64,000 nt of DNA from Hawksworthiomyces lignivorus (lineage: Eukaryota; Ascomycota; Sordariomycetes; Ophiostomatales; Ophiostomataceae). The notes under the pieces were generated by a model, which was not told the origin of the DNA, searched no databases, and worked only from the letters and a program-made list of their open reading frames with translations. A program made the translations under genes and the position numbers. The DNA is taken from assembly GCA_002917075.1 (NCBI GenBank), contig NTMA01000043.1, positions 62,001 through 126,000 of the forward strand. The letters run 5' to 3'. Positions 823-40,241 of this stretch are shown here, piece after piece (positions within the stretch are counted from its first letter, which is position 1; each line of letters begins with the position of its first letter).

Positions 823-3800
823 ATGGCGCTCGCTGCGCGCACAGCGGCGCCGCTGAGCCCCGAGGTCATTTTGGCGCAGACGATCTCGGAATTTGAGAAC
901 AGTCTCTCGGCTGAGCAGAAGCCGACGTTTCGCAATTTGCGAAACCAAGCACTTCGCTCTGCGCCACAACCGGAGGACGTCATGCGCTTGACGGCAGAAA
1001 TCAGCCTGCAGTTCAAAAGGAATTCGCCGATGAGCCGATGCTTCGGCCCGCGGTTTACCAATGTCCTGCAGACGGTCCAGCAATATGCGGCACTAGGCGA
1101 CGTCGTTGTCGGCGGCGCACAAAACATTCTTGCAGCCGGCATTTGGGCTTTAGTGAGAATGTCTCTCCAGGTGAGTGATTGCCCCGGCACCCCGAAAGCT
1201 TCGTCTTCTGGACCTTGCTCGAAACGGGTCTTGTCTCCTTGGGCCAGCACTCCCTCCACCTGTGCCTTGTATTGACGCGTGCGAACTGCGGCCTAGATGG
1301 TCGTCGGGTTGACTTCGTATGTGGAGAAGATCTCCATCTTTTTTATGAATGTTGGTCGTTCTTCGCCGAGATACCAATCTATGGCACTTTTGTATCCCCG
1401 CTCTGCCAACCTTAGAGCATATCTATGCCACTACTTCGTCGTCATCACACGCGTGTGCCAGCACTTTGTGTCTTTCAGCCAAAAGTCTCTTCTGGGGCAG
1501 CTTACGGCGTCCTTGGACGACTCGAAACTGCGCACAGCGCAGACCCAGCTGGACAAGTGGGCGAGCTGCATCCGAGAGGAGGTTGCCTTTCTCAGCGCGC
1601 AGACGGTGGAAGAGGAAGCACGGGAGAACAGCCGCTTTCGAGCGCTGATCAGCATGTCCCAATCTGCGGATGCGCACCGGCAGCGATTGGCACGGCGGCT
1701 GAAGCTGCTGGATGGCTGTTCGACCATGGACTTTGAAACGCCATGGAAGCAAGCGCGGAAACTGGGCAACTCGACCATCTTTGCGAACAGCAGCACATAC
1801 CGCGCGTGGAAGGATGAAGCCAATCCCTCGACGCTAGTCTTGATGGGCAAGCTTGGCTCCGGGAAGTCGGTCACCATGGCCAATATTCTCGACGATGTTC
1901 TCCTCAGCGACGACGGCGCGGCAACTGTTTATTTTTTCTGTAGACACGATATCCCGGAAGGCTTGACCGCGCGAGCCGTTGTCGGTTCTTTGCTTCGCCA
2001 GCTGCTGCAATTGTGCATTCAGGACCCAGCGCTGGACGAGCTAATCGATGACTTCAGAGCACATTTTAGTCTTGACTACATCGTCGGCATCGTCCATAAT
2101 GTGTTCCCTCACCAACGTAGGGTCCGATGCCTCATCGATGGTCTTGATGAATGCCCCGTAGAGGAAGCAATACAAGTGCTGCGTTGGATCAAACGTCTGC
2201 GCACCAACCTGGACTTGCAATGCTGCATGTCTGTCCGGACGACGGCGGATAGAAAGCTGATCTCAGACGAAACTCTAGCTGAAGGGGAGACCATCGCCAT
2301 TCCCGACGACAACCCGGACATTGTCAATTACATCGACGCCGAACTTCAGTACCGTGTCGAAGCAGGAGATTTGAAGATCGGCAACCCTACGCTCACCCTT
2401 GAGATCAGAGATGCCCTTTTGCATGGCGCCAATGGGATGTAAGATCTATCGACAGTGCTATTCTCGATTTTGGAAGCGGCTCTGACAAATTTATCACAGG
2501 TTTTTATGGGTGGCTCTTCAGATCCAATCCCTGTGCGAAGAAGAGAGCGACGAGAGCATCCGGACTGCATTGTGCAATCTCCCACACGACCTCTACATGA
2601 CGTTCGAGCGCATCTTGACGCGCGCGCGCAAGCGAGGAACAGCGTACCAGCAGCTGATTTTGAAGCTCGTATCTGCCGCATACCGACCTCTGACTATCTA
2701 TGAACTGCGCGAGGCGCTGAGCGTTCGCCCGCGCGATCCTACCTGGTATCCAGAGCGCCTGGTCAACGACATCCGCTCTACAATCAGCTGCTGCGGTAGT
2801 TTGGTCATTGTTGACGAGGAGGAGCTCTCGGTTCGGCTGATTCACCAGAGCGTACTCCAGTTCCTGCTGAGTCCCCCAGAAACCAGCCAATCACCACCTT
2901 GGCACTTTGACCTCGAAGAGGCGCACGTAGACGTAGGCGAAATTGCCGTGACCTTTCTCAATTATGGCATATTTGAAACTCGGGTTTCTGCAAGCGTAGC
3001 TCCGTCTGTCTCCGCAACTCAGCTGGCCAACAGAGTCATGGAAGACGCACTTGCTCCGGCGGGTATGGCTGGAAAACTGGCTCTGATGCTATTGCGCGCG
3101 ACTGCTTCCACGGCGCAGGAGGACCTGAACGTGGGCAGAATCGTCGCCGAGATCCAGAGCCAGCGCCGGCAGAAAAAGGAAGTGGAGATTTACCACTTTC
3201 TTCCATATGCGTCCCAGTACTGGCTACCTCATACGTCCTGGGTCAACAAAGAATCCAAAATTTACCCGCTCTGGCTGCAAGCCTTTAATAATCCCATGTT
3301 CGATTCCGTGCCGTGGGCTCACGGTGAAAGGCCTGTTGATGACCTAGTGGTCGATGAAGAGACCGGAAGCGTGTGGCAGTTGTCGCCAAGGATAACTTGG
3401 TCCATTTCACACGACCATATGGCGTTGTTCCGCGCTGAACTGACCGGAAAAGAATGGCTTCGTGGATTCAGAAGTGTCATGCCCTATCTTGTGGCATGCC
3501 TTAATAATGACGTCCCGCCACTCATTTCGCCTGGCATGGCCACCAGGCTATTGCTGTTTGCGGTCCTCTTTCGGTCAGTAAAGATTGCCAAGTGGTTGCT
3601 GTCGATGGGGGCAGACGTGTCCGCCCAAGATCGCCGGTTGTGGCAAGGAGCTGTAAACCGTCGCGAGCATGACTTCCTCGGCTCTATTGTCAAATTCGAC
3701 AATGAGAACGGATACGGCTTGTTAAAATATACACTCCTGGCGCTTGCATGTGAAGCAAAGGATGCCTGTCTTGTACACTTGCTCATACGATGTGGAGCAG

Positions 3801-5476
3801 GTGCCCATAGAGGGCAGCAGCATAGTTCGCAGCCAATCGTCTTGGACACTGTGCTCTACGATTCCAGCAACACCCGCATTGCCTTTAACCTTCTTCGTGC
3901 AAATCACTTCCCATTCTCTTATGATGTCGATACCTTTGTCAATCGCTTTTGCCAGCTTCTCATAACATGCCAAGCCATGGCCAATCTTGACTTTTTCGAC
4001 CCAGTCAAAGCTGCGCTAAGCGCTGCATCCTTTCACAGCGAGAGGGATTCAGGCAAGATCTCAAGACTTCTTGAAAAGACTCTCGTCCATGCCTGCCTAC
4101 GCGGCGATGTATTGTTAGCAGGGATGCTCCTCGGCCACGGATTTCCTTCCAATGAAGACACCACAAAGGAGTGTCTTCAAGCCACGCTCTATGCTCGATC
4201 AATAGCGAGAACGCAGATTGCGCTCGAGATTTTGGAAAGCAATTCCCCTCCAGAGTGTCTCCTCCGATGCGTTCAATTACGAGATTGGCATTTAGCCACA
4301 GAGCTACAGCTGCGAGGCGCTGCCGGAGCCGGTGTCAAGGCGTACGCATCGCGTTTTCCTGTCTTACACCTCTGCGCAGATGCCGGGGACTGCGTCGGAC
4401 TACGATTTCTCTTGAACCTCACAAAGGCCGATGTCAATGCACCATTTGGGGGCGACTCGATATTCGGCAAGGATACTTTGATACAGACAGCCTTAAAAGG
4501 TGAATGGGAGGCGCTGGGAGACTTGCAACGTCTCAAGGATACCATTGTTACTCTTATCGATCTGGGGGCAGATCTTGGCATTGCCAGAGCAGAGAGCGAA
4601 CCATGCATTAACCTTGTTTTCCAGCTATGCGGTAGGATGGCGGACCGAATGGAAAAATATTTGGGGAACACGGGTACTAGGAGGCTGTTCCACGAATTCG
4701 AACACATCTTGGAAACCTGCCTGCAGAAAGAGAACAGCACAAAAATGGGCAACAATACCTCCAAGGTTGGGCCAGGTCACTTAGAAATTGTCATGCGAAG
4801 GTACATAGCCCTGGTTGGGAAATTTCAAAGTCCCCGGAGAGGCATATCGACGCCGGTGGGCAACTGGAGCTCTGCCTGGGCTAGAGGGATTCTTGCCATC
4901 AAAGGCCACTATCTCAGGGTCACTGAAATGCTTCTGCGATACGGCCACCAGGAAAACTGTGCAGGAATAATTAGCGAGAATGCGCAAGCTCTCGGCGGAG
5001 TCATGAGGCACCTGCTCGCATCATATGGGTTCGACGTGTCTGCGATTGCGCTCGAAGACCAGATCCTTGTCGACCGCCGGCCGCCGATGCTCCAAGCGGC
5101 TTATCTTGGCGAGAACTTCATCAACGTGGTCAAAGCCATAATTCTGGAGGAAATGACATCAGACCATGCGGCGTATTTTGAATTCGTAAGTGTCAGGGAC
5201 GCGGTAGATAGAAGCTCTCTAGAACACGATATTTTGGTACGCGCCTTTGAGTTGGCACGCTTGGAGTCTCCTATCGTAAACCAAGTCGCTGCACAAGTCG
5301 AGATGAGTAGCAAAGAGGAGTCAGAAGAGGAGGGGAGCAAGAAGGACGAAGTCTTACCGAGCTGGGCTGAGGAGAGTCATACTGCAGCAAGTCTTTGCCC
5401 ACAGCAGACAGAAATTCGCTCTATCGTAGATTCAGACTCTGAAGATGACGATGGCGATGAGAATTCAATAGATTAG
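823..5476 (+). CDS. NACHT/STAND NLR-like protein with ankyrin-like repeats
   Basis: Three exons (823-1170, 1297-2438, 2500-5476) join in frame to 1488 aa. The second junction recreates the classic NACHT stretch GMFLWVALQIQSLC, which strongly supports the model. The N-terminal ~280 residues resemble the helical leader found before fungal NACHT domains. A Walker A motif (GKLGSGKS) lies near residue 300 and a Walker B motif (LIDGLDEC) near 394. A winged-helix-like segment with the HQSVLQFLL motif follows. Ankyrin-like repeats (AKWLLSMGADVSAQD, VHLLIRCGAGAH) lie around residues 845-925. The C-terminus is a Glu/Asp-rich tail. Fungal NLRs of this kind act in nonself recognition and regulated cell death; that role is inferred from the family. 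No break was found in 4.6 kb. The exact start is uncertain because another ATG could be used upstream of the NACHT domain. Confidence 0.85.
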
Positions 5477-6564
5477 TAGCGCCGACCTAACTTAGACATT
5501 TAGGCCGCCACCAAATACCGCTTCGCACAAATCATTACATCTGACACACCACCAGCCAATCATCTCAGCCATCATGAGCGACTGGCCCATAACGCCTCTC
5601 ATCTTTCTCCAGCTTCTCTCACACTCCTTGTGGCTCTATTTTTGTTTCTGGACAGAGAAAGAGACAATGTTAGATTTGGAATAATAGATATTAAGATAAC
5701 CCATTAGCATGCTACCTAAACATAGAGAAGGCACAAGATTATATAGATATTCTCATTTTCAACATGTCCCTCTTCCCTGCGAGTTCCCCCCGTATCTTGT
5801 GATCTGTCCATTTGTCTGCCTTACGGTTACGTTCTGCAGATGCCTAGCATTTTTCAGTTTCGGAAAAGAAAACACAACAGTACTGCCAGCCTTAAGGCTC
5901 ATATCATCTGTCTCAAACAAAATCATATCGCCATCGCCGTACTTCGTTTGTGGATCTGCCTTGACAGACTGCAACAAAAGCAAACCTAAGTGAGGCCTTT
6001 TCTCTTCCTTGTCTCCGCCGACTGCTTGTCATGGTCTTGTTCCATTAGCTATTAGAGTGGCACAAGGCAGGCTCATGCTGGTGTTTCTATTAGCATGACT
6101 GTGTAAGGAGTGTCGAGTTTTATATCATATGAATATCTCATTATTACCGTACATGTAGTATTGTATCTACCCTCCGCTAAGAGGCCTTAGCCCTCGTACT
6201 GTCGTAGGCACAGTTATTTCTCCTTTTACAATTAACAATCTGCATCACCTGAACTCAACAGCAGTCTTTCTAAATCATTACAAAATGGCTAGGGAGGCCC
6301 CCTTTGATGCAACCTTCCTACAGACTATTGGTGGTGACGCAAATTGTTCTTATACAAAAGAAGTCATTAAATGCTGTTGAGTTATAAGGGACTGTTACAT
6401 GGGCCCAACAGGATTAATCCTTTTGTACTGGTAGAGTGACTTAGTGGCACCGCTCAACAAATGCAAGAAAGACCTTTGGTAAAGAAATAAGTTTAAAATT
6501 CGAGCACAAGAGCACAAGGCACTATCACACCAACTCCAGTCCAGTTCTTTCACGGCGTCAAGAA
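5477..6564. other. Intergenic, 1.1 kb
   Basis: This separates the NLR gene from the precursor-like gene on the opposite strand. ORFs here (for example 5709-5993) have no recognisable domain, skewed composition and no intron support. Nothing else is seen. Confidence 0.55.
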
Positions 6565-6820
6565 TTAACCTAGAAAATTAGTTAAGATACTTTAACAAAA
6601 GAAAATGGAAGGGTCGCATACGCTGAGCAGCACCATCACCATATCCTTCGTCATCGTACGATTCAGCCCCTAATTGGGTTAATAGACAGACTGTACAACA
6701 AAGACCTGGTGGTTTAGACTTGCGTTTGGCAAAGGCACCGTCAGCCTGAGGCTGGATCGCAACGGCCTGGGCGATCGCAACGAAAATGGTCACTAAAAAG
6801 GCAACCGTAGGAACGCGCAT
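6565..6820 (-). CDS. Putative secreted RiPP precursor peptide (UstYa/dikaritin-type)
   Basis: The ATG at 6820 opens a short ORF with a clear signal peptide: a basic start (MRVP), a hydrophobic core and small residues before QAVA. An intron with donor GTATGC (6621-6570), branch-like CTTAACTAAT and acceptor TCTAG ends the protein after 67 aa, leaving only two coding bases and a TAA in exon 2. Without splicing it would be about 75 aa. After the leader there is a dibasic Lys-Arg site (AFAKRKS), as used by Kex2, then a Cys-rich stretch (CCTVC) and an acidic, Gly-rich tail with two tyrosines (SYDDEGYGDG). Tyr is the usual target residue in UstYa-made cyclic peptides. The adjoining genes are a UstYa oxidase, a tyrosinase and a peptidase, which is why I call it a precursor. 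A 42-base alternative intron (about 6706-6665) would remove the Cys stretch. A small secreted cysteine-rich protein of other function is the alternative. Confidence 0.55.
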
Positions 6821-7492
6821 TTTGAATAAGTGTAAAGTGTAATAGACCGTATATGGACAGGGATATAGCAGAAAGCAGAAGCAGACGTATGACACTAGAT
6901 AGATGGGTCTTAAAGTGAAGAAGATGGAAGCAAGGCAACAATATTGGTAAAGATATGAAATATCAAACGGGGCGGTCCTTCGATATATATAGACACCGCA
7001 ATCATAATAACAAGATTATTAGATACCGTATAATTCTAAAGCTACGAAACACGAAAACCACTTATACCAAACTAGGAAGGTTACAAAAGAGTTTGAAAGA
7101 CAAAAAACTTGTTGACTTACTGGGGACCAGAAAGAATGCCCTTTCTCCTCTTCTACACACCTTCGCTTACATGGGAGAGGGATGGGAGACGTCCATTATT
7201 CATGACTTCTGTGGTGCAATAATGGCGCACAGAGCTTATGTCTTTTGCATAACAATGAAACATACAGCATGTAAGTATAAGGCACGTAGATAAGCGGACG
7301 ACGACTGGAATGTAGGCAATCTCCTGTGGATTTGGAGGATTGAGTGATTTACAGAACAAGCGAAGCTACAATTTCTCCTCAGTTGCGCAGCCTCTCTTAC
7401 AGATGAGAGGGCAGGAGCCTGTCACTTGGTGGCTAACGAAGTACAGGCTTCCCACGGCACCGGCTATCAATAAAAAGTACTGTCTTTAACCA
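6821..7492. other. Precursor promoter and UstYa 3' flank
   Basis: This holds the upstream region of the leftward precursor-like gene, with an AT-rich TATATATA element near 6983-6990, and the 3' end of the UstYa gene. The + strand ORF at 6955-7293 is low-complexity and shows no family features. Confidence 0.4.
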
Positions 7493-8573
7493 CTATGTAC
7501 TGCCCGTCTCCCCTATGATATCGCCACGGCCCCCAGGATAAGCTGGCCCCAGCTTAGGGTGAATCAAATATCCCGGCTTGAAGAGGTTGCCAATTCGGCG
7601 GCTTCCAGCCCAAGCGTCCAGCTCTTTCCACTTTACACACTGATGTGGCATCGTGAAGTTGGCTGTAGGAATGCTACTCTCGGTTTGCCACTTCATAGTG
7701 AGAAGCTGCATGTCACCTTGACACATTACACTCTGACGAAGCATGTCCAAGCAGTGATCTAAAAACGTCAACTTATTAATGAAGAACCAAATAAGGAGAA
7801 ATGCGACAAGAAAGACACCATAATGGATGATCTTTTACGTACGGTTATGATATTCGTTTGCATGCTTCTGTTTCAGCGTGATGTTGGGAAAATAATGGTC
7901 CTCATACATATAATGATGAATTCGTTTCTGCTGCTGTTTTAGTCTGCATCATGGAACTTCTGCAAGGACCAAGGTAACTTACAATACAATGGAGGTTGTG
8001 GTATACGTTGGCACTTGCAAAGTATCCACCATCTGGCAAACGAATGGCCTGCTCTCGGCGACCTGGGATATGATCCATCTCTGATTCTGTGATGCGAATA
8101 TTGCTGTCTTCAATTTTGTTAGGCGAGAAAAATCAAACGATTGCAGTAGAGCATACGCACTTTTCAACAGACGGCTCCATGCTTCATCGAGCTCTTCACT
8201 CGGTGCCCCAACGTAGACAGAATGCTCGTGCATGAATACTTTCGACTCATATGCACCCGTGTATGGAACTGCTATTGTTAATTTTTTTTTCTTTCTCTCA
8301 ATGTATGTGACTCTTACCATACGTAACGGAAGGCCTAGTTAAACAGTTCCTGCCTTCCAATCGGTGCCAGGCGTATGCGAACACGAGCGTGTACGTTAGA
8401 ACCAGGCACAGGTGTAGGCATACGGACTGCCATGTCGGCCGGAGAGCAGCCTTTCCATTGTGAGACGTGTAATTCGCTTCGTAAGCGTCATTTATATCTT
8501 CCTCTTCAGATGAAGAGGAAGTGCGCCCTGCTGGCGGAAGAAGAGGAACTTTTCTTTCTTCTTTTGAAAACAT
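7493..8573 (-). CDS. UstYa-family (DUF3328) oxidase
   Basis: Five exons (8573-8318, 8271-8157, 8103-7983, 7933-7843, 7758-7493) join to 282 aa with consistent phases. The N-terminus is cytosolic and begins like other family members (MFSKEERKVPLLP). A single membrane helix spans about residues 50-69. The family block GAPSEELDEAWSRLL precedes the first HxxHC motif (HNLHC, 159-163, in VYHNLHCI). The second motif (HNHHC, 193-197) runs into the hallmark HCLDMLRQ..MC. UstYa proteins carry out oxidative cyclisation of Tyr-containing core peptides of ribosomally made fungal peptides such as ustiloxin, asperipin and phomopsin. Some members instead act in other pathways, for example cyclochlorotine hydroxylation. 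It lies head to head with the tyrosinase, 397 bases apart, and tail-on to the precursor-like gene. Both copper/iron-binding motifs are present, so it looks functional. Confidence 0.9.
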
Positions 8574-8970
8574 TGTGTCTGCTTTTGGTTGACATAAACT
8601 GAGTAGGAGGGGGAAAAGGCACAACTACAGAGTGCTTTATACATTGGATGGTTTCGTTTGGCTCGCAGTAGAGTCATATCTGACCACACTGCAAGCCGAA
8701 GGGTGTTCACCTTCCTGAATTGCATTTACAGAGTATAGAGGGAGGGAGGGTCGTAATAATAAACCTTCCCCTAAAGAATCAATCTATCCTATAGAATTAG
8801 CGTGGAACAAGGAATCACCTCTCGTGCTTCATGTAGTATTTTCGTTTCTTCTAGGTATAAATAGCCAGAGGGAATGAGACTATAGATATATATTTAATCT
8901 CTTCTGATTAAAGCACGACCGAAGGCAACTGCAATACATTAAACTGGGCATTCTTAAAAATTCTTTTTCA
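8574..8970. promoter_or_regulatory. Divergent UstYa/tyrosinase promoter
   Basis: The 397-base gap separates the start codons of two divergent biosynthetic genes. TATAAATAG at 8856-8864 lies about 107 bases before the tyrosinase ATG. On the other strand TATAAAGC (8635-8642) lies about 62 bases before the UstYa ATG, with a CCAAT just behind it. One shared intergenic region suggests joint regulation; no regulator gene is seen in the cluster. Confidence 0.55.
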
Positions 8971-10185
8971 ATGGCCTTTTTCTCTCGTGCATTCACTTAT
9001 ACGTCTTTGCCTCAGTCTGAAATAGAACTTGAAGGTTCTCAAAGAGGAAACAAGTCACTTGGAAGACGTCGATTGCGATTGTTTGCTGCGCTTCTCCTAT
9101 CAATAGCCGTCATTCTAATCACTTCCGTTTGGGCTGCGTTTGTTCCTGATGCCTCAAACATCTGTAGCAATCCTGTCGTGCGGAAAGAGTGGCGTACTGC
9201 AAGCCGTTCAGAGCAGCAGACGTATATTGATGCAGTCTTGTGCATCATGAGAGCGCCCTCAAAACTACGAGAAGACTCCAGTCGATACGATGATTTCGCA
9301 TACATTCATACGTCAGAGGGGGCCACAGTGCACTATGCCGCTGCCTTTTTGCCATGGCACCGATATTTCATTCACATTTTCGAGACCGCATTGCGGGAGG
9401 AATGTCACTATAACAAGTCCTTGTTGTAAGTCAGTTCGATATGTCACCAACTTTGCCAGTGTCTGATGAGAGAAACAAACAACAGATACTGGGACTGGAG
9501 CCTTGACGCAGGGGATCTTGCCATGTCGCCGATATGGGATCGAACGAGCGGTTTCGGTGGCAATGGCGACAGCAACGACGACACCCACTGCGTGACAAAC
9601 GGGCCATTTGCAAACACATCCCGCTGCTGGCAATCGAAGGCCAACGGTCATGGATTCGATACCCTCCGCCTGCGTCACTGCCTGGCGCGGGACTTTGCGA
9701 CTGGTGACTACAAAGATGCGCTGCAAGAGCGGATTACTGTCGCATCCATCGAGCAAGTCCTCGAACAAGGCACGTACGCGGCTTTTTTTGACCAGCTCGA
9801 GGTCAAAGTACATAATTCGATCCCTCTGTTTGTTCGCGGTGACTTTTTTCGACTTACCGCCCCCAATGGTAGGTCACTTGCGCTATTTAAGCACAACCAG
9901 GAAACTTGATATCCTGTACTGATGTTGGTTGTAGATCCTGTTTTCTTCTTGCATCACGCACAGGTGGATCGTCTATGGTGGTTGTGGCAACAGCGAGACA
10001 TATCTCAGCGCATGCATGACTTTGGTGGATCAATCCAGAATGTAAGAATCAACAAGACGCATACCAACTCGACCAACTCCGATGCATCTCTGGAAAACGA
10101 AGTGTCGCTAGGCGGGTTGGCTCCAAGTGTCCGCATCCGCGAGATAATAATCACGCAGTCGTCGTTGTTTTGTTACCGTTACTAG
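8971..10185 (+). CDS. Tyrosinase (type-3 copper), UstQ-like context
   Basis: Three exons (8971-9425, 9486-9868, 9935-10185) give 362 aa ending in CYRY, the usual end of short fungal tyrosinases. A membrane helix or signal anchor lies at about residues 31-57. The CuA site is complete: His113 (YIHT), His121 and His130 in FLPWHRYF. The CuB region shows VHNSIP near 261-265 and DPVFFLHHAQVDRLWW near 282-293. Tyrosinases usually have HxxxH at the start of CuB; here the second His appears to be Pro. Known dikaritin clusters (ustiloxin, phomopsin) carry a tyrosinase that hydroxylates a Tyr in the core peptide, and the divergent pairing with the UstYa gene fits this. A melanin-type function is the alternative. 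Confidence 0.88.
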
Positions 10186-10842
10186 GCAATTGTGTGCTTC
10201 AGATGGCGTATGCCTCTTTCAAAACCAACAACATTTTAATTGCTTTGTAACCCTCCTTTACTGGGTACGTGATCGTAGGATCTCCTCCTGGCCCGTTTCT
10301 CCCAAACGAGAAAGTCGTAATCGATATGTAGAATGCTTCGTAACACCTTCCACTTGGAGCAACGTAGTAGCATCCTGATCTAGGTCATTTGAAATATTAA
10401 TCTCTGGCTAACAAAGATAAGTTCTCATACAAATGAGTATTCGAAAGCTTCTTAGCCAGTGTCGGATCCTTGGCTTAATGGTATATACGGTGTCTCAATT
10501 ATCGGATACATTGTATTATGTCAGTAATAGTTCAGCAGCTTAGCTTATCCTCAAGAGACGGAAATCGAGCTATGTAAGATATGCAGCAATGAAAAAACTT
10601 AAAAATAGATAATAACTGCCGAGATAGGATGAGGTAAACTTCTACGTTTAACCGATCGTAGCGTGTCAAGGGAAGCCTGTACAAGCTTCGGTTTATTAAC
10701 AGATCCGCACTACGAAAAGCGAGTCGCACTGCTGTAATATTTTACTCTATCTTTTCCTCTGCCCTGCTGTGTCTTGAATTCATCCCTTCTAAACAGCTTC
10801 TTCGACTCTCCTTAGACCCGCTGTGAAAACCAGAACACATAA
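10186..10842. other. Intergenic between tyrosinase and M3 peptidase
   Basis: AT-rich spacer holding the tyrosinase 3' region and the peptidase promoter. The segment just before 10843 is pyrimidine-rich, as in many fungal 5' leaders. No gene seen. Confidence 0.5.
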
Positions 10843-13014
10843 ATGTCTTCTTTCAAAACAGGTGGCGCTCTGCCAGAGCCTCCACGAGAGTTTTCCACGA
10901 CGCCCGAGTCTCTTGTGGCTGAAGTAAAATCAATTTTGACAAAGACTGCTGCCAAGTGCGATACGCTTGCAGCGTCACTGTCGCCTGAGACGGCTACCTT
11001 TTCAAATACGATTCGGCCTTTTATCGACGACGAGAACGAAGCCGACTACCGTCTTACTATTCTCACGCATTTTCTGTCAGGCGTCTCTCCGGATTCTGAC
11101 ATTCGTGCAGCCGCTCGCCAAGCTAAATTGGCATTTTCAACGGCGACGGCGGCTAAATACATGCACCACGACATAGCGGCTCTCGTGAACACTCTACACA
11201 AAAGGCATACTTTGGAGGAGACTAGCCTCGATGCCGAAGACCGTTATCTGCTTGAGCACCTCCAGTCTCAATTCAAACGTTCCGGTGCCCATATCCACGA
11301 CGAAGACACGCGAGCGCGGTTGTTAGCTGCGCAGCAAGAGTTAGATCAGTTGTTAAGTGCGGCCAATGAAGAGTTTGCGGCAGCTGACGATGGCGTGTGG
11401 CTGCCTCGCGAAGCACTTGTTGGTGTTCCGGAAGATTTACTCTCATCTCTAAAAAATGACGATGCGAGTGGCAACGAAGGCACACCGCGGCTCTGGGTGA
11501 CCTTCCGGGATGCCCACTACTTGCAAATCATGCGCCACGCGACTAGTGGCGCCACTCGGCGAATATTGTATCTTGCAAGGCAGCAGCGTTATCCGCACAA
11601 CGCCGAGAGACTTAATAGCATTGCAACGCTTCGAGATGAGATCGCCCGGCGTCTTGGATATGTCAACCATGGATCACTGAAGATGGAAGAGAGAATGGCA
11701 GGAAGCGTGACAGAGGTACAGACAGAACTGCTGGAGCTTTGTCAAAAGTTGAAACCTCTAGCGAAGCAAGAAACGGCGGCCCTTCTTCGGCTAAAGAGCA
11801 ACGAGGCAGCACCCCAAGAATCAGACGCCCAGCATACAGATTTTGCAGTGAACGATGGGCCCGTTTTATACGCATGGGATAGACTGTATTACGAAAACAA
11901 GCAGGCTGAGCTCTTTTCCGTGAAGAGTAAAGTCGTATCCGAGCACTTCGAGGTGATGCATACACTCCAAAGTATGCTACACGTGTTTGAGGAACTTTTT
12001 AACTTGAAATTTAAAGAGATAATTACGGGCGTATGGCACAAGAGCGTTGTCGCATACAGCGTCTGGGATAGTTTGCCACAGGCAAATGGCTCCTTTCTCG
12101 GCTACCTATACCTAGACATCTTTGCACGAAAAGGAAAACGACCCGATCCGCACCACATGGTTCTCCGGCGGGGCTTTGAAACAGAAGATGGAACATGGCA
12201 CTGCGCGGTCTCGGCCTTTGTGTGTAGCTTCCCCGCACCGACGGACGACCGGCCGACCTTGCTTCAACATCGTGACGTGCGAATTATATTCCACGAGCTT
12301 GGCCATGCTATACACAACTTGACAGCCCGCACGAAATACGCTCTATCGCACCCCAAGGACTACGTGGAGATCCCAAGCAAGCTGCTAGAATACTGGATAT
12401 GGGAGCCTTCCGTCCTTGTTCGGCTAGGAAGACACTACAAATCCGGAATAGGAATGCCGTTGGAACTCGCAGAAAGCATAACGCGTACTATGGCACTCAA
12501 CAAGGCTACGAATCTTCTCCATATGATACAGCCAGCCGTATTCGACCTGTTAATGTATTCTCCGCTATCTCACATTGAAGCAAGGGAGCTTAATACCACG
12601 GCAATCTGGAACCAGACGAGACAAGACATCCTCTCTGAAGTTAGCAGGAGTGATGACAATGCTCTCGGACATGGACAAACAGCAGTATCGGTTCTCTTTA
12701 AGAGCTACGACGTTGCTTATTATGCATACACTATGTAAGCACACCTGTACCTTGAATCCAAGCCATATACAAAATAACGGCTATGACTAACAATGTATAG
12801 AGCTATTATCTACGCTGCAGATTTATACAGCTATGAATTTGTAAAAAACCCTATTAGCCCAACAGCCGGAATGCGGTACAGACGTATTGTTTTGACACCT
12901 GGGTCCAGTAAACCACCTATGGATACTTTACAACAGTATTTGGGGCGAAAACCAAACTCTGATGCAATTTTCACAGAAATTTCCGCTGGGCTACAGCTTA
13001 TTGCATCCAGCTAG
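10843..13014 (+). CDS. Peptidase family M3 zinc oligopeptidase
   Basis: Two exons (10843-12734, 12801-13014) give 701 aa, the normal length for thimet oligopeptidase/saccharolysin relatives. The zinc motif HELGH is at residues 484-488 in IIFHELGHAIHNL. The third ligand lies in EIPSKLLEYWIWE, 25 or more residues downstream, as in the family. The substrate-channel block GYLYLDIFARKGKR and the C-terminal GMRYRRIVL...LGRKPNSDA are also typical. M3 enzymes are cytosolic or organellar and cut short peptides. It lies next to the tyrosinase and could trim or degrade peptide intermediates of the cluster, but it could equally be an unrelated housekeeping-like gene. Peptidases of various families are found in characterised UstYa clusters. 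Confidence 0.92.
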
Positions 13015-15337: not shown

Positions 15338-16519
15338 TCAGGCCTGGCTACGACCACGCGAAGCATATGCCGTCTCCCCACTCATCTCAATATATCTTGG
15401 CTCTCCACTTGCTTCAACATATCTTGGCTCTCCCCCTGCTTCAACATATCTCGGCTCCCCGTCTGCTTCGACGTATCGTGCAACTGCAGTCATTTCGGCG
15501 TACCTCGGAATTCCACCAATCTCAGTAGCCTCTGTTGACGGACTCTTCTTGCCCATCGATTCGAGCTCCACAAATGGCTGCTGAACATGGGACGGGTATT
15601 GAACAGGCGTGTTGGTATAGTTTTGCTGTTGAACTGCGTCGACCTCGGCGAGTGGTGATGCCTGGTACTGGTTCGGTCTAGGCCCGTACTGGTCTGCTTG
15701 GGCGACCGCTGGGGCTTGGACTGCTAGGGGGTGAGCGATCGGTTGCATATGATTGGCATGCCGGGCTACCGCACGATTCATGTTGCGGCGATGACATTCA
15801 ATGCAGTAGCGAACGAAGAGGACAATGTGGATGACCCTTGGGCAGTTTAGATGTCAGTGATGTTAGGTTATCATACACAGTACTTGGGGAAAGAACTAGA
15901 GAAGACCGGAGTAGCATACGCCAAGGGCCAGAAGCAGATCGCCAATGCCAATTCCAAACTGAGATACAGGGCGTAGCCTTCCGTGGGTTTGGTGCTGTTG
16001 TCAAAGGCGTTATAGGAAGTGTCCAACCACCAGTACGAAAACTCCGCATCGAGGGGATACTCCGAGGCGATCAAGCCGCCTCCCACAACACACCCCAGCC
16101 AGATGATGAGATGTATTCCGACGTGGGCACCGGGGTGGATGCCGCGGTTGCGGCGGAGACACAGGGTAACGAATTCAGTCTTCTGCCAAATGATGGCGAC
16201 AGCGGCCTGGCAATTGTCAGTGAGAAATTTACCGTGCAATCTAACGACGAGGACAACTGACCGTCCCGATAGCCAATCCGCCATCCATGAATCCATTGAT
16301 TTCTGGGTAGGGAATCTGGGCGGCAATGATTCCGCCTCCGAGGCCAAGCACCACATAGCTCACCAGAATTGAGAGGCACCCAAGAACTACCTTAGTCATG
16401 TACCATCCTTTGCTGGAAACAACTTTATTATTATCAGGAGTGGGAGCCAGAGGCGCGAAGCCTTGATGTTGCACGGAGAGTGGTTGGAAAACCGCGGGCT
16501 GAAGTCCAGTGGTAGCCAT
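15338..16519 (-). CDS. Four-helix membrane protein with repeat tail
   Basis: Three exons (16519-16262, 16206-15920, 15836-15338) give 347 aa with matching phases. The first donor is GTCAGT, a non-optimal but valid GT. Four hydrophobic helices are visible: YMTKVVLGCLSILVSYVVLG, GGLAIGTAAVAIIW, HLIIWLGCVVGGGLIA and YLSLELALAICFWPLAVIHIVLF. This topology recalls small fungal MARVEL-like or unknown membrane proteins. The C-terminal ~150 residues are cytosolic, Pro/Gln-rich, and end in about four imperfect repeats around GEPRYVEA. I do not recognise the family and assign no function. Confidence 0.75.
15383..15480 (-). repeat. Short coding tandem repeat (RYVEA unit)
   Basis: Imperfect units of about 30 bases inside exon 3 of the membrane-protein gene encode variants of GEPRYVEA(S/G/D). 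The units differ slightly at both DNA and protein level. This suggests repeat expansion in a tail that may be exposed. Confidence 0.7.
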
Positions 16520-19983: not shown

Positions 19984-22974
19984 TTAGGCCAAACGAATGT
20001 TCTCCACGTTCTGTTTTGCTATTCTGGAGAGCTCGCCGTCCATAAGACCAGCCACAAAAGTCTCGCTAATCAACTTGTATACACTGTCATGCTTGCGAAG
20101 AACAAAAGGAGTATTGCTGCCAGGTAAGACAGCAACCTGGTCTTTCGGCTGAGTTGCGACATAACTGATGCCAACGTGCCCTTTCGCTGTGCAGAAGAGT
20201 TTACGCTGGTGAGTTGTGGATAGGATGCGTTGGTAGACTGCGTCGACTTGGCGACCGAATGCGGTCTCTGGCACGTTCCGGAATTCAGGGCGTCCCGACC
20301 GCATGGACCGATTCCCTACGACAGTCTTGAGCATTGCGCCAAAAGACCGAAGCCCAAAAAAATCCTTGGTACCAGGGTTCTCCGCTAGCATCCGCACAGT
20401 ACCGCTATATTGATAGGCTGCGCCTTTGCGCACAATACCGTCGAATGTGCTCAGGATTGCCTTTTCTTGCTCTTGGACAGGCATGCTGGCGTCTTGCGCA
20501 GGTAGGACGAGCCCCGGTGTAAGTGCCCGGAAAATGTCTCTGTGCGCCTTGCTAGGATCCAGCGGAGACTCTGGCTTGGATCGAATGGCTTTAATAATGT
20601 TCTCAGCATATGGGGTAAATGTTTTGAGCCACTCGAAAACCAGCTGCTGACCCGGTAGATTTGTGCTACCCGGCGGTACGGCTGGTGGCCCGTCAAACAC
20701 GACAACAATCTCGTCGATCACGGTGCCATCTAAGTCCACGAACGAATAAGCATCGCTGCTGCCCGCCGGTGGCAGCCGAATCGAAGGAGCCACTGTTAGT
20801 GTGCCTTTCTGGGTGCCAAAGGGCGAGGTCCGCCGCCAGTTGATCTTCTTCGTCCAGTCCGGCACCCACGACGGAAGCGGCGCATCGCCGCCGTCACCTT
20901 CGCAGTACGCGAGCAGCCAGAGGTCGCCCTGTTTCAGGTAGGCCCGCGCCAGATCGACAAAGACTGTCTTGGCGGGTAGCCGGTAGTCGATCTCGAGGCC
21001 CAGCTCGTCGCGGTCTGCCGCCAGGCCCAGCAAGGCGTAGACGTGGTCCCGGGGATCTGTCGCCTCCAGCGATGCTTCGGCGGCATCCATGAGCAGCTGC
21101 TTCATAGACGGCATGCGGCCGGCGCCGCAGCCCAAGCGGGTCGCAAACTGGACCCACGGGCGGTGATCGAGCACGTAGGGCGGCCGGCCCAAGGCCGCGG
21201 CGTGCGTGTCCCAGGTGTGGAGGAAGGACGCGAACACGCCATCGGCCGCCGGGTCGTCGATGCGCTTTCGCCCACAGAGGACGGCGACGCGCGGCGCGAG
21301 AGCCAGCTCCTGCAGGACCCAGATGCGCCCCCACCAGCTGCGCTGGAACAGCGCGGCGACGGCCTCGATCGGGTAGGGCGGGATCGGCGCGTAGCTGCGC
21401 ACGTCGTAGCCGAACAGGATGCCAAAGGCGCCCTGGACGAGCTCGTCCTGCACGTCGCGCTCCGGGTTGAGCGCCGACATAGGCACATTGCGCATGTCCG
21501 TGCGCAGCGTGGCGGCGTCGGCGTATGCCTCGGTGCGCGCGGCGTAGCGGTGCTGGGCGGCGAGGGTGTCGAGGGCCTTGTCGCTGTCGACGGTGGAGGG
21601 GCCGAGCCACACCAGGACGCACTCGGCCTGCGCATATACGCGACGCATCTGGCCGACCTGCCAAGACTTCTCGCCGGGGTCGTCCTGGTTGATACACACG
21701 GCGTCGATCCATAGGACTATGTCGTCGACGTCAGAACGGAGGTGGCGGAGCGCGCTATCGAGATTGGCACGAATGCGGAGCGGGGCGTCATCGACATACA
21801 GAGTCAGCTCGGAGAGGGGATATCGTGCTTGCCGGTCTTCGGACCAAGTGTAGGACAAGGCACTGTACTTGGGCTTCTCGTCTAGAGAGGCATATTCCAT
21901 CTTGCACCGCAAAGACCCTGACTTGGTGCTACAAGGTTGCAAGCGGATGAGCCGGATCTCGCGCTCTTTCTTCTCCAATGGACGTTCGTATTTGAAGAAT
22001 TGAGAGGGGGATGATGAGGAAGCAAGTGGAGGGACAGATGCGATCACGACCCTTCCGAGCTCATAGCCCATTGCTATTTTCAAGCCTGATGCTGCAGCTG
22101 CTGAGCAGCTGGGCTGCTGGTATTCCGCAGGTAGACAGAGCACATTCTCGCTATCACGAGTAATCCATGAGCCGTCCTTGCTGACTGCATATCTGAATTG
22201 CCTCTGGGATGGATTTCGCTGGGGCTCTCCAAGATTGACAGCTGGCTCAAATGGGTCCGCTGATATCGTTACGGAAGTTGAGTTGGATCCAAGATCATGA
22301 CTCTCGAGCTTTTGCAGGCAGCGGCCACTGTCGACGTCCCAGATCTGCACAGTATAGTGCGATGCCAAAGCGACCCGCTGCGAGTCGGACGAGAAGGTGA
22401 CAGAGCTGTCCCAGTCATCATGGCCAGCAAGTGTGTGGAGACAGAGGCCACTGTCTGTATCCCAGATCCGGACTGTCCCGTTAAGCGTTGATGAGACGAT
22501 CTGTCGTAAGTCAGGCGAGAAGGCAGCTGAAGTGACACCAAGAACTTGGTTCGAGAGCACCCGGATGCAGCGGCCGCTCTCAGTATCCCAGATTTTCACT
22601 GTTGCATCATCGGATGCTGAGGCGATCTGCCGCGAGTCAGATGAGAATGCGACTGAGTTGACCCCGAGAATATGGTCCTCGAGCGCGTGGAGGCAGCGGC
22701 CACTACCGGTGTCCCAGACTCTGACTGTTCCGTCGCCTGATGCCGAAGCGAGTCTCCGCGTGTCAGGAGAAAAGACGGCTGTCGTGATTGAAAAACCATG
22801 GCCCTTAAGTGTCTGTATGCAGTTGCCACTGACAGCGTCCCAGATGCGGACTGTTGCGTCGCGGGATGCCGAGGCAATCCACTGCGAGTCGGGGGAGAAG
22901 GCGACGGAACTGATTCCATCAACATGGCCCTCAAGCGTCTGGAATCTACCGCTGTGTTCATTTGCCATGATCAA
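19984..22974 (-). CDS. WD40-HET fusion protein
   Basis: A single exon encodes 996 aa with no break. Residues ~5-220 are five good WD40 repeats (LEGHVDGISSVAFSPDS...DATVRIWD) plus a degenerate sixth. From ~330 a HET domain follows, with IRLIRLQP, YSALSYTWSED (near 370), LWIDAVCINQDDPGEKSWQVGQMRRVYAQA (near 420) and WGRIWVLQELALAPR (near 550). The C-terminal ~400 residues (TDPRDHVYALLGLA, PSWVPDWT) are the usual tail of HET proteins. WD repeats normally follow a NACHT domain in fungal HET-D/E-type proteins, with HET first; here WD40 comes first and no NACHT is present. The start is the first in-frame ATG; nothing NACHT-like lies upstream. A role in incompatibility or nonself response is inferred from the family. 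Confidence 0.88.
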   Translation of the reverse strand: MIMANEHSGRFQTLEGHVDGISSVAFSPDSQWIASASRDATVRIWDAVSGNCIQTLKGHGFSITTAVFSPDTRRLASASGDGTVRVWDTGSGRCLHALEDHILGVNSVAFSSDSRQIASASDDATVKIWDTESGRCIRVLSNQVLGVTSAAFSPDLRQIVSSTLNGTVRIWDTDSGLCLHTLAGHDDWDSSVTFSSDSQRVALASHYTVQIWDVDSGRCLQKLESHDLGSNSTSVTISADPFEPAVNLGEPQRNPSQRQFRYAVSKDGSWITRDSENVLCLPAEYQQPSCSAAAASGLKIAMGYELGRVVIASVPPLASSSSPSQFFKYERPLEKKEREIRLIRLQPCSTKSGSLRCKMEYASLDEKPKYSALSYTWSEDRQARYPLSELTLYVDDAPLRIRANLDSALRHLRSDVDDIVLWIDAVCINQDDPGEKSWQVGQMRRVYAQAECVLVWLGPSTVDSDKALDTLAAQHRYAARTEAYADAATLRTDMRNVPMSALNPERDVQDELVQGAFGILFGYDVRSYAPIPPYPIEAVAALFQRSWWGRIWVLQELALAPRVAVLCGRKRIDDPAADGVFASFLHTWDTHAAALGRPPYVLDHRPWVQFATRLGCGAGRMPSMKQLLMDAAEASLEATDPRDHVYALLGLAADRDELGLEIDYRLPAKTVFVDLARAYLKQGDLWLLAYCEGDGGDAPLPSWVPDWTKKINWRRTSPFGTQKGTLTVAPSIRLPPAGSSDAYSFVDLDGTVIDEIVVVFDGPPAVPPGSTNLPGQQLVFEWLKTFTPYAENIIKAIRSKPESPLDPSKAHRDIFRALTPGLVLPAQDASMPVQEQEKAILSTFDGIVRKGAAYQYSGTVRMLAENPGTKDFFGLRSFGAMLKTVVGNRSMRSGRPEFRNVPETAFGRQVDAVYQRILSTTHQRKLFCTAKGHVGISYVATQPKDQVAVLPGSNTPFVLRKHDSVYKLISETFVAGLMDGELSRIAKQNVENIRLA

Positions 22975-39272: not shown

Positions 39273-40241
39273 TCACTCTTTCTTTTTCTTGATGAGCAGC
39301 AGTACGATCGATACTTGGCCACCCAGCACCTCTTCGCCAGGCGGCACGCCGGCCTCGTGCAGAATAGCTGCGATCCGGCGTTCCATCCGCTCGACGACAT
39401 CCTCCTCCTTGCCGGCCGTCACCGCCTCCCGGTGCGCCTCGCGCCAGCGTGTGACAGTGCTGTTCGTTGCCGTCAAGCGTGCGAACTCGGCCAACGTCAC
39501 CATTCTCTTTGTCCCCATTTCGCTGTCGTCGCTGTCGCTGTCGTTGCCGCCCGGCCCCCACACGCGGCGCACAAAGCTCGCCTGGTCAAAGTCCGCGACA
39601 GGCTCGGCCAGCGTCCACGGCAGCGGCAGCTCTGCGTAGAGGTCACGCGTGAGGATGCTGCCGCGCTTGTTGAAGGGTTCCAGGTCCTGCCGGAACGTCT
39701 CGTCGACGACAGCACGCACGGCCGCACCGTTTGGAGTCCGCGCGGGGTCCGGGTCCGCTGTCATACCCGTGCGGGCCCACAGAGCCACGGTGCCGCCGGG
39801 CCGCAGCACCCGCGCTGCGCGCGGCCAGAAGCGCGCCAGGTCGAACCAGTGCGCCGCAGTGGCCGCCGTCAGCAGGTCGACGCTGCCGTCGGCGAGCGGC
39901 GGCTCCAGGTCGGACCCCAGGTGCTCGGCCGCCGACACGGCGAAGCGGAGGTTGGCAGGCTCACGCGCGTCCGCAGCCGTCGCCTCGCGCGCGCCGCTGA
40001 TCATGCCTGGCGACGGATCGAGGCCGACGGCCTCAGAAAAGTAGGGCGCCAGGTCGCGCGTGGCCTGGCCCGTGCCGCAGCCGACGTCGACGACCAGGTC
40101 GCGCCCGCCGCCTGTCGCCAGGTGGTGGTCCACGACGACGCGGAACAGCTTGGGCGCGTAGCCGGGGCGGCCGGCGGCGTATGAGGCGCCCTGGGCGGCG
40201 GTGTACGCACGGAAGGTCTTCTCGTCAGAGGCCATGGTCAA
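39273..40241 (-). CDS. Crg1/Tmt1-like SAM-dependent methyltransferase
   Basis: A single exon of 322 aa. The N-terminal YAAGRPGYAPKLF and motif I LVVDVGCGTGQATRDLAPYF (residues 49-68) are followed by AVGLDPSPGMI and the acidic-loop region. AAEHLG, SVDLLTAATAAHWFD and RVLRPGGTVALWA (motifs II and III) come next. This combination is typical of the fungal Crg1/Tmt1 (trans-aconitate methyltransferase-like) group, which methylates small carboxylic acids or lipids. Either of two ATGs, six bases apart, could start it. It is markedly GC-rich. The substrate is unknown. Confidence 0.88.
   Translation of the reverse strand: MTMASDEKTFRAYTAAQGASYAAGRPGYAPKLFRVVVDHHLATGGGRDLVVDVGCGTGQATRDLAPYFSEAVGLDPSPGMISGAREATAADAREPANLRFAVSAAEHLGSDLEPPLADGSVDLLTAATAAHWFDLARFWPRAARVLRPGGTVALWARTGMTADPDPARTPNGAAVRAVVDETFRQDLEPFNKRGSILTRDLYAELPLPWTLAEPVADFDQASFVRRVWGPGGNDSDSDDSEMGTKRMVTLAEFARLTATNSTVTRWREAHREAVTAGKEEDVVERMERRIAAILHEAGVPPGEEVLGGQVSIVLLLIKKKKE

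Follow-up and report, generated by a model that had tools for sequence, protein, structure and literature searches.

A 6.5-kb locus of the ascomycete Hawksworthiomyces lignivorus brings together genes for a UstYa/DUF3328 oxidase, a UstQ/PhomQ-like tyrosinase and an M3 oligopeptidase with a short open reading frame (ORF) for a predicted 67-residue secreted protein. It lies at positions 6565–13014 of a 64,000-nucleotide stretch of contig NTMA01000043.1 (assembly GCA_002917075.1, positions 62,001–126,000 of the forward strand; hereafter, the window). We conclude that this cluster probably makes a tyrosine-modified, and likely cyclic, ribosomal peptide from the 67-residue protein, in which the proposed core, DEGYGD, occurs once. 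The candidate would be the one-copy form of a kind of precursor whose known forms are repeated.

A single-copy candidate precursor with a repeat-bearing relative

The ORF (6565..6820, minus strand) comprises exons 6820–6622 and 6569–6565, separated by one 52-nt intron (GTATGC...TTTTCTAG). It most likely encodes the precursor of a dikaritin-like peptide, with one core rather than tandem repeats. The predicted protein has a signal-peptide-like N terminus, one Lys-Arg (KR) site at residues 32–33, a single DEGYGD (codons at 6635..6652, minus strand) and a CCxxC motif, making it cysteine-bearing. Taken alone, the ORF is only suggestive, because small ORFs that combined a dibasic site with a similar crude signal-peptide score also arose in 20 of 2000 dinucleotide shuffles (∼1%) of the 2-kb gap at 5477–7492. 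A Pfam search assigned it to no family, and the sole match in its own genome was the ORF itself, with no paralog.

We take the ORF as a precursor because it shares DEGYGD with the repeats of P0006, a UstYa relative from Thermothielavioides terrestris. A tree of 12 rows, comprising the window protein and 11 of its 14 matches, places P0006 as sister to the window UstYa (support 86/91, an unstarred node), and the UstYa portion of P0006 is 67% identical to the window enzyme over 165 columns. It tracks the window UstYa as far as IPTANFS and then departs from the family, continuing as DEGYGEKEKTDGVPVTPVTGKIKR DEGYGDKEKTDGLPVPPLAGRVKR DEGYGDEEKTDGVEVPVREW. This tail consists of three repeats starting DEGYG(E/D), with two KR sites between them, such that KR directly precedes two of the three copies. 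Because the normal UstYa C terminus is gone from P0006, the gene model has likely jumped into a downstream precursor gene on the same strand, and P0006 is likely to be a UstYa model merged with that gene. A same-strand precursor downstream is the simplest reading of P0006 and reproduces the order of the window, in which the ORF lies downstream of the UstYa gene, both on the minus strand. Merged annotations such as that of P0006 may conceal precursors in databases.

DEGYGD is the longest string common to the ORF and the tail of P0006. When the ORF was shuffled 20,000 times with its composition preserved, 7 of the shuffles had six consecutive residues in common with this tail. Across the six frames of the window, two overlapping 5-mers of the tail occur nowhere else, and a second DEGYG-type stretch, considered as a further candidate, is absent from all six frames. 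Among 134 listed UstYa and tyrosinase relatives, DEGYG(E/D) repeats occur in P0006 only; the EGYGE of the tyrosinase relative P0017 is unrelated. The string DEGYGD was not found in the 5.39 million papers searched.

Two other readings of the ORF were rejected. An extra intron was considered by eye, but the CTATTAAC...TTAG stretch lacks a good donor and the sole in-frame candidate is 36 nt, so the unspliced reading was kept. A normal repeat-type precursor was set aside because the ORF has one KR, one DEGYGD and no repeats.

The enzymes of the locus

All four genes splice cleanly to intact frames within 6565–13014, with the short introns typical of a filamentous fungus. These spliced models, the Pfam matches to the enzymes and the sequence motifs bear out the grouping of small ORF, UstYa, tyrosinase and M3 peptidase proposed in a first-pass annotation of the window, together with the motifs that it listed: both HxxHC motifs, a CuA-type histidine site, HELGH, a signal-peptide-like start and one KR.

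The UstYa/DUF3328 oxidase (7493..8573, minus strand; five exons, 282 residues) matches PF11807 with 149.8 bits against a cut-off of 25. It has an N-terminal hydrophobic helix, the hydrophobic stretch beginning at residue 50, and carries HNLHC at residue 159 and HNHHC at residue 193. In DUF3328 enzymes, copper is held in paired HxxHC motifs, as described in PMC12435403. The family is further defined by a binuclear copper site on paired helices and by a membrane-anchored dimer. The structure model of the Fusarium proliferatum UstYa relative (P0001) is of too low quality to support a fold search.

A divergent promoter region of 397 bp (8574..8970, no strand) separates the limits of the UstYa gene from those of the tyrosinase gene, and the tyrosinase and M3 genes, both on the plus strand, diverge from UstYa. 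The tyrosinase (8971..10185, plus strand; three exons, 362 residues) also starts with a hydrophobic helix and matches PF00264 with 140.5 bits, far above the cut-off. Alignment identifies CuA-type histidines 113, 121 and 130 and CuB-region histidines 261, 286 and 287, which would be copper ligands as in known structures. The second CuB histidine position is proline (P265; residues 261–287 correspond to window 9811–9957), a feature unmentioned in the first pass. Among the 120 homologs listed of 709, this position is Pro in 94, His in 16, Ser in 9 and Asn in 1, and PhomQ1' likewise has Pro, which may point to a changed copper site in tyrosinases of the UstQ type.

The M3 oligopeptidase (10843..13014, plus strand; two exons, 701 residues) matches PF01432 with 307.8 bits, again far above the cut-off. 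HELGH at residue 484 is followed by EIPSKLLEYW, supplying the HExxH and the presumptive downstream Glu of peptidase family M3. Among solved structures, its closest relatives are thimet oligopeptidase and neurolysin.

Several further features lie in or near the locus. A 40-nt direct repeat, 73% alike, occurs at 7142–7181 and 7372–7411 in the upstream region of the precursor ORF. ORFs for a NACHT-type ATPase and ankyrin repeats adjoin the cluster (1297–5476, plus strand). An ORF tail at 15338–15781 (minus strand) contains 27-bp tandem repeats that encode RYVEAxGEP-like units and has no Pfam match, and one ORF at 19984–22968 (minus strand) encodes WD40 repeats followed by a HET domain.

The UstYa-tyrosinase pair in relatives and in the same genome

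At a threshold of E 1e-10 or better, the UstYa has 14 protein relatives, including members of Fusarium, Lecanicillium, Thermothielavioides, Nemania, Cadophora and Microdochium. Fusarium verticillioides has a UstYa relative, FVEG_03588 (P0002), and a tyrosinase relative, FVEG_03589 (P0020), whose locus tags are consecutive and whose contigs are of equal size, in support of the UstYa-tyrosinase pairing proposed in the first-pass annotation. The UstYa and tyrosinase matches of Lecanicillium saksenae fall on separate contigs of only 10 and 11 kb, a distribution that speaks neither for nor against the pairing. In a tree built from the window tyrosinase and 32 of the 120 listed homologs, the window protein sits in a clade of 14 rows, itself included (support 99/98), with proteins from Fusarium, Metarhizium (one named ustQ), Cladobotryum (ustQ), Lecanicillium, Akanthomyces, Xylaria and Nemania; two members in all are named ustQ. 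The PhomQ1' branch lies outside this clade, PhomQ1' being 43% identical to the window tyrosinase over 82% of the query. Four Fusarium locus tags were not found in the literature searched.

The H. lignivorus genome (43.7 Mb, 191 contigs, with the window on contig C130) contains at least 14 UstYa, 14 tyrosinase and 9 M3 places, which we grouped mostly as one per contig; the match counts are lower bounds. A UstYa place is found no more than 10 kb from two of the 14 tyrosinase places (0.09 expected) and from two of the nine M3 places (0.06 expected), the 10-kb limit having been picked after the data were seen. Since the window was chosen for this very grouping, the independent evidence amounts to one place each, on C151 for the tyrosinase and on C136 for the M3 peptidase; these two UstYa places with a partner of the same kind count in favor of a cluster. 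The best match of the window tyrosinase beyond its own gene is the one on C151 (35–61% per stretch), and the best stretches of the C68 and C136 copies show 35% identity to the window M3.

We scanned the regions flanking 12 further UstYa places (20 kb at ten of them and 8 kb at two, with C166 left out) and found a clear repeat precursor at three of them, on C1, C136 and C151; because the scans ignore introns, absence at the remaining places is not proven. C151:31746–32312 (minus strand) has nine GYQYTTV repeats beside two UstYa stretches and a tyrosinase, and looks like an ordinary dikaritin cluster. C136:192439–192726 (minus strand) has four EGVVGWADVSK repeats with KR and a Trp-containing core, near UstYa stretches and an M3 gene. 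Ten DEAWTFHI repeats between KR sites occupy C1:840321–841125 (minus strand), ∼2 kb from a UstYa gene. Weaker precursor candidates are two small signal-peptide-like ORFs near UstYa genes, one with YASYG(S/D)YPPP repeats (C90:193474–193728, minus strand) and one with QYSNEVQSAAK/AYSEQVQSAAK pieces (C142:36809–37021, minus strand).

A model for the pathway

In our model, the precursor would enter the secretory pathway and a Kex2-type protease would cut after KR, freeing the 34-residue fragment KSKPPGLCCTVCLLTQLGAESYDDEGYGDGAAQR. UstYa, a putative membrane-anchored copper enzyme, and the tyrosinase would oxidize the core tyrosine and bridge it to a neighboring side chain. The product, which may be simpler than known dikaritins, would then be trimmed by additional proteolysis, in which the M3 enzyme may take part. 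The number of cores would vary by lineage, with three or more in T. terrestris and one here.

This scheme has precedents in the pathways described in PMC6514808. The first cyclic intermediate of ustiloxin requires UstQ together with UstYa and UstYb, and asperipin-2a cannot be made without AprY, for which a role in sequential ring closure is indicated. The Kex2 fragments of ustiloxin are longer than its core and are trimmed by proteases given there as unknown, so a core embedded in a 34-residue fragment is no obstacle. As described in PMC12435403, UstYa enzymes also act in non-ribosomal pathways, for example CctR, and UstYa alone is accordingly no proof of a ribosomally synthesized and post-translationally modified peptide (RiPP).

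Discussion

Several observations weigh against this model. The DEGYGD of the ORF is unrepeated, with no KR directly before it, and no homolog of the whole ORF was found among 5.8 billion proteins by a word-based search that needs three shared 5-mers. The earlier proposal of a small secreted precursor is thus retained for its core motif, which recurs in a relative, and loses the expectation that the whole 67-codon ORF would be found in relatives. The DEGYGD link was noticed post hoc and has one relative as its basis, in which the merger is read from the protein sequence. In the 43.7-Mb genome, DNA able to encode DEGYGD occurs at two places, 6635..6652 of the window and C2:257566; the reversed control pattern occurs at 0. 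No promoter word of 8, 9 or 10 bases is common to all three promoter regions. In relatives, the UstYa (43% identical) and tyrosinase of Nemania sp. FL0916 are on different contigs, of 153 and 219 kb, and are therefore probably apart, and no T. terrestris tyrosinase appears among the 120 matches listed of 709. The structure model of the UstYa relative P0001 has a predicted local distance difference test score (pLDDT) of 50 and no usable fold. Lastly, judged by hydropathy only, the M3 peptidase lacks a signal-peptide-like start, such that a secreted peptide would be reachable for it only after a change of compartment.

The last point makes M3 membership in the pathway uncertain and its role the weakest link of the mechanism. 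The enzyme could be a bystander or a cytosolic clean-up enzyme, the pathway consisting of UstYa, tyrosinase and precursor, which would leave the other parts of our model in place. Its N terminus and its kinship with thimet oligopeptidase and neurolysin fit such a role, but the C136 copy also lies close to a UstYa place, for a total of two such M3 places against 0.06 expected, at a locus that carries a repeat precursor as well. The phomopsin cluster, too, has an oligopeptidase. We judge the bystander explanation somewhat less likely than not. What stands of the UstYa-type RiPP cluster originally proposed is a locus that pairs UstYa with a tyrosinase and has an ORF for a likely secreted precursor; a repeated core is absent and the place of M3 is uncertain.

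Two explanations would remove the ORF from an active pathway, and we consider both unlikely. The cluster may be a decayed dikaritin-like one, in which the precursor has shed its repeats, together with the KR before the core, and the product is gone while the enzymes persist. The three repeats of P0006, compared with one motif without a flanking KR here, and the failure to find a homolog of the ORF speak for decay. Against it, the frames of all four genes are intact, both HxxHC motifs, the CuA histidines and HELGH are retained, one KR is still followed by an open frame, and no relic of tandem repeats is reported in 6500–7450. Alternatively, the ORF could be an unrelated small secreted protein carrying a CCxxC motif, or a chance ORF, with the UstYa-tyrosinase pair acting on a substrate encoded elsewhere. 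The yield of such ORFs from shuffled intergenic sequence, the second DEGYGD-coding place on C2 and the activity of UstYa enzymes on non-ribosomal peptides are all compatible with this explanation; it is at odds with the presence of the exact hexapeptide in the repeat tail of the sister UstYa protein, where the same gene order and strand are implied.

How such a cluster should be classified depends on the definition of dikaritins. The newer, enzyme-based definition set out in PMC12048977 makes a DUF3328 protein with two HxxHC motifs class-defining; the locus encodes one, and on the precursor side its inclusion rests on DEGYGD. The five-gene definition of Ding et al., as reported in the same source, calls for a precursor with a leader and repeated core and recognition motifs, where the ORF has one KR and one DEGYGD, and for multiple DUF3328 proteins, where the window contig has one UstYa place among 27 matches listed. 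The tyrosinase that it names is present, and the predicted M3 peptidase would supply its transporter or peptidase. There is no methyltransferase among the four genes; the nearest methyltransferase-domain ORF seen (39273–40235) is ∼26 kb away, based on 11 flanking ORFs, a scan that intron-split genes may escape. Considered together, the locus would work like a dikaritin locus but is a variant rather than a typical member.

As in the ustiloxin and phomopsin clusters, a UstYa-family oxidase and a UstQ/PhomQ tyrosinase accompany a secreted Kex2-type precursor with a tyrosine-containing core, which is predicted for the window. The core here is single and unrepeated, however, no methyltransferase was seen among the four genes, and there is one UstYa protein rather than the two and five given for ustiloxin and phomopsin in PMC7329392, where the tyrosinase and precursor are seven or eight genes apart rather than two. 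The ustiloxin and phomopsin cores, as published, are Tyr-X-Ile, whereas DEGYGD is acidic and Gly-rich without that pattern; the four dikaritin cores named in the sources consulted (YAIG, YVIG, YVIP and FYYTGY) are all unlike it. The asperipin-2a pathway, as described in PMC6514808, is similarly compact, with four genes and a single UstYa-family enzyme. Its genes encode a precursor, a UstYa homolog, a transporter and a reductase, without the tyrosinase present here, and its core, FYYTGY, belongs to a repeated precursor, in contrast to the unrepeated DEGYGD.

Kex2-processed repeat proteins (KEPs) have a signal peptide, a KR site and a Tyr-containing product adjoining a DUF3328 gene, features seen or predicted in the candidate as well, but they are defined by tandem repeats between Kex2 sites, of which the window ORF has none. 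The published KEP survey, by the account of its procedure in PMC7329392, filters for tandem repeats, and the window ORF would therefore escape listing. P0006 also carries DEGYG(E/D), in three repeats of a single annotated protein, whereas the window has the motif once, in an ORF apart from the UstYa gene. Precursors without repeats were already suspected, since lichen UstY clusters include signal-peptide genes with Kex2 sites and no conserved repeats, according to the description in PMC12048977. That description names no core for them, whereas here the repeats of a relative indicate one. Tying a non-repeated precursor to its core through a repeat-bearing relative appears to be new in the literature searched.

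Repeat-based genome mining would overlook a one-core precursor of this kind. If such precursors are in use, many UstYa genes that lack an evident precursor could be put to the test. A broader proposal, for which we judge the case a little short of evenly balanced, is that UstYa pathways do not need repeated precursors and that core number may expand or collapse within one pathway. One-core dikaritin-like peptides would then lie hidden beside “orphan” UstYa genes, missed by repeat-based mining, and the H. lignivorus locus may specify a new acidic, glycine-rich, tyrosine-bridged scaffold.

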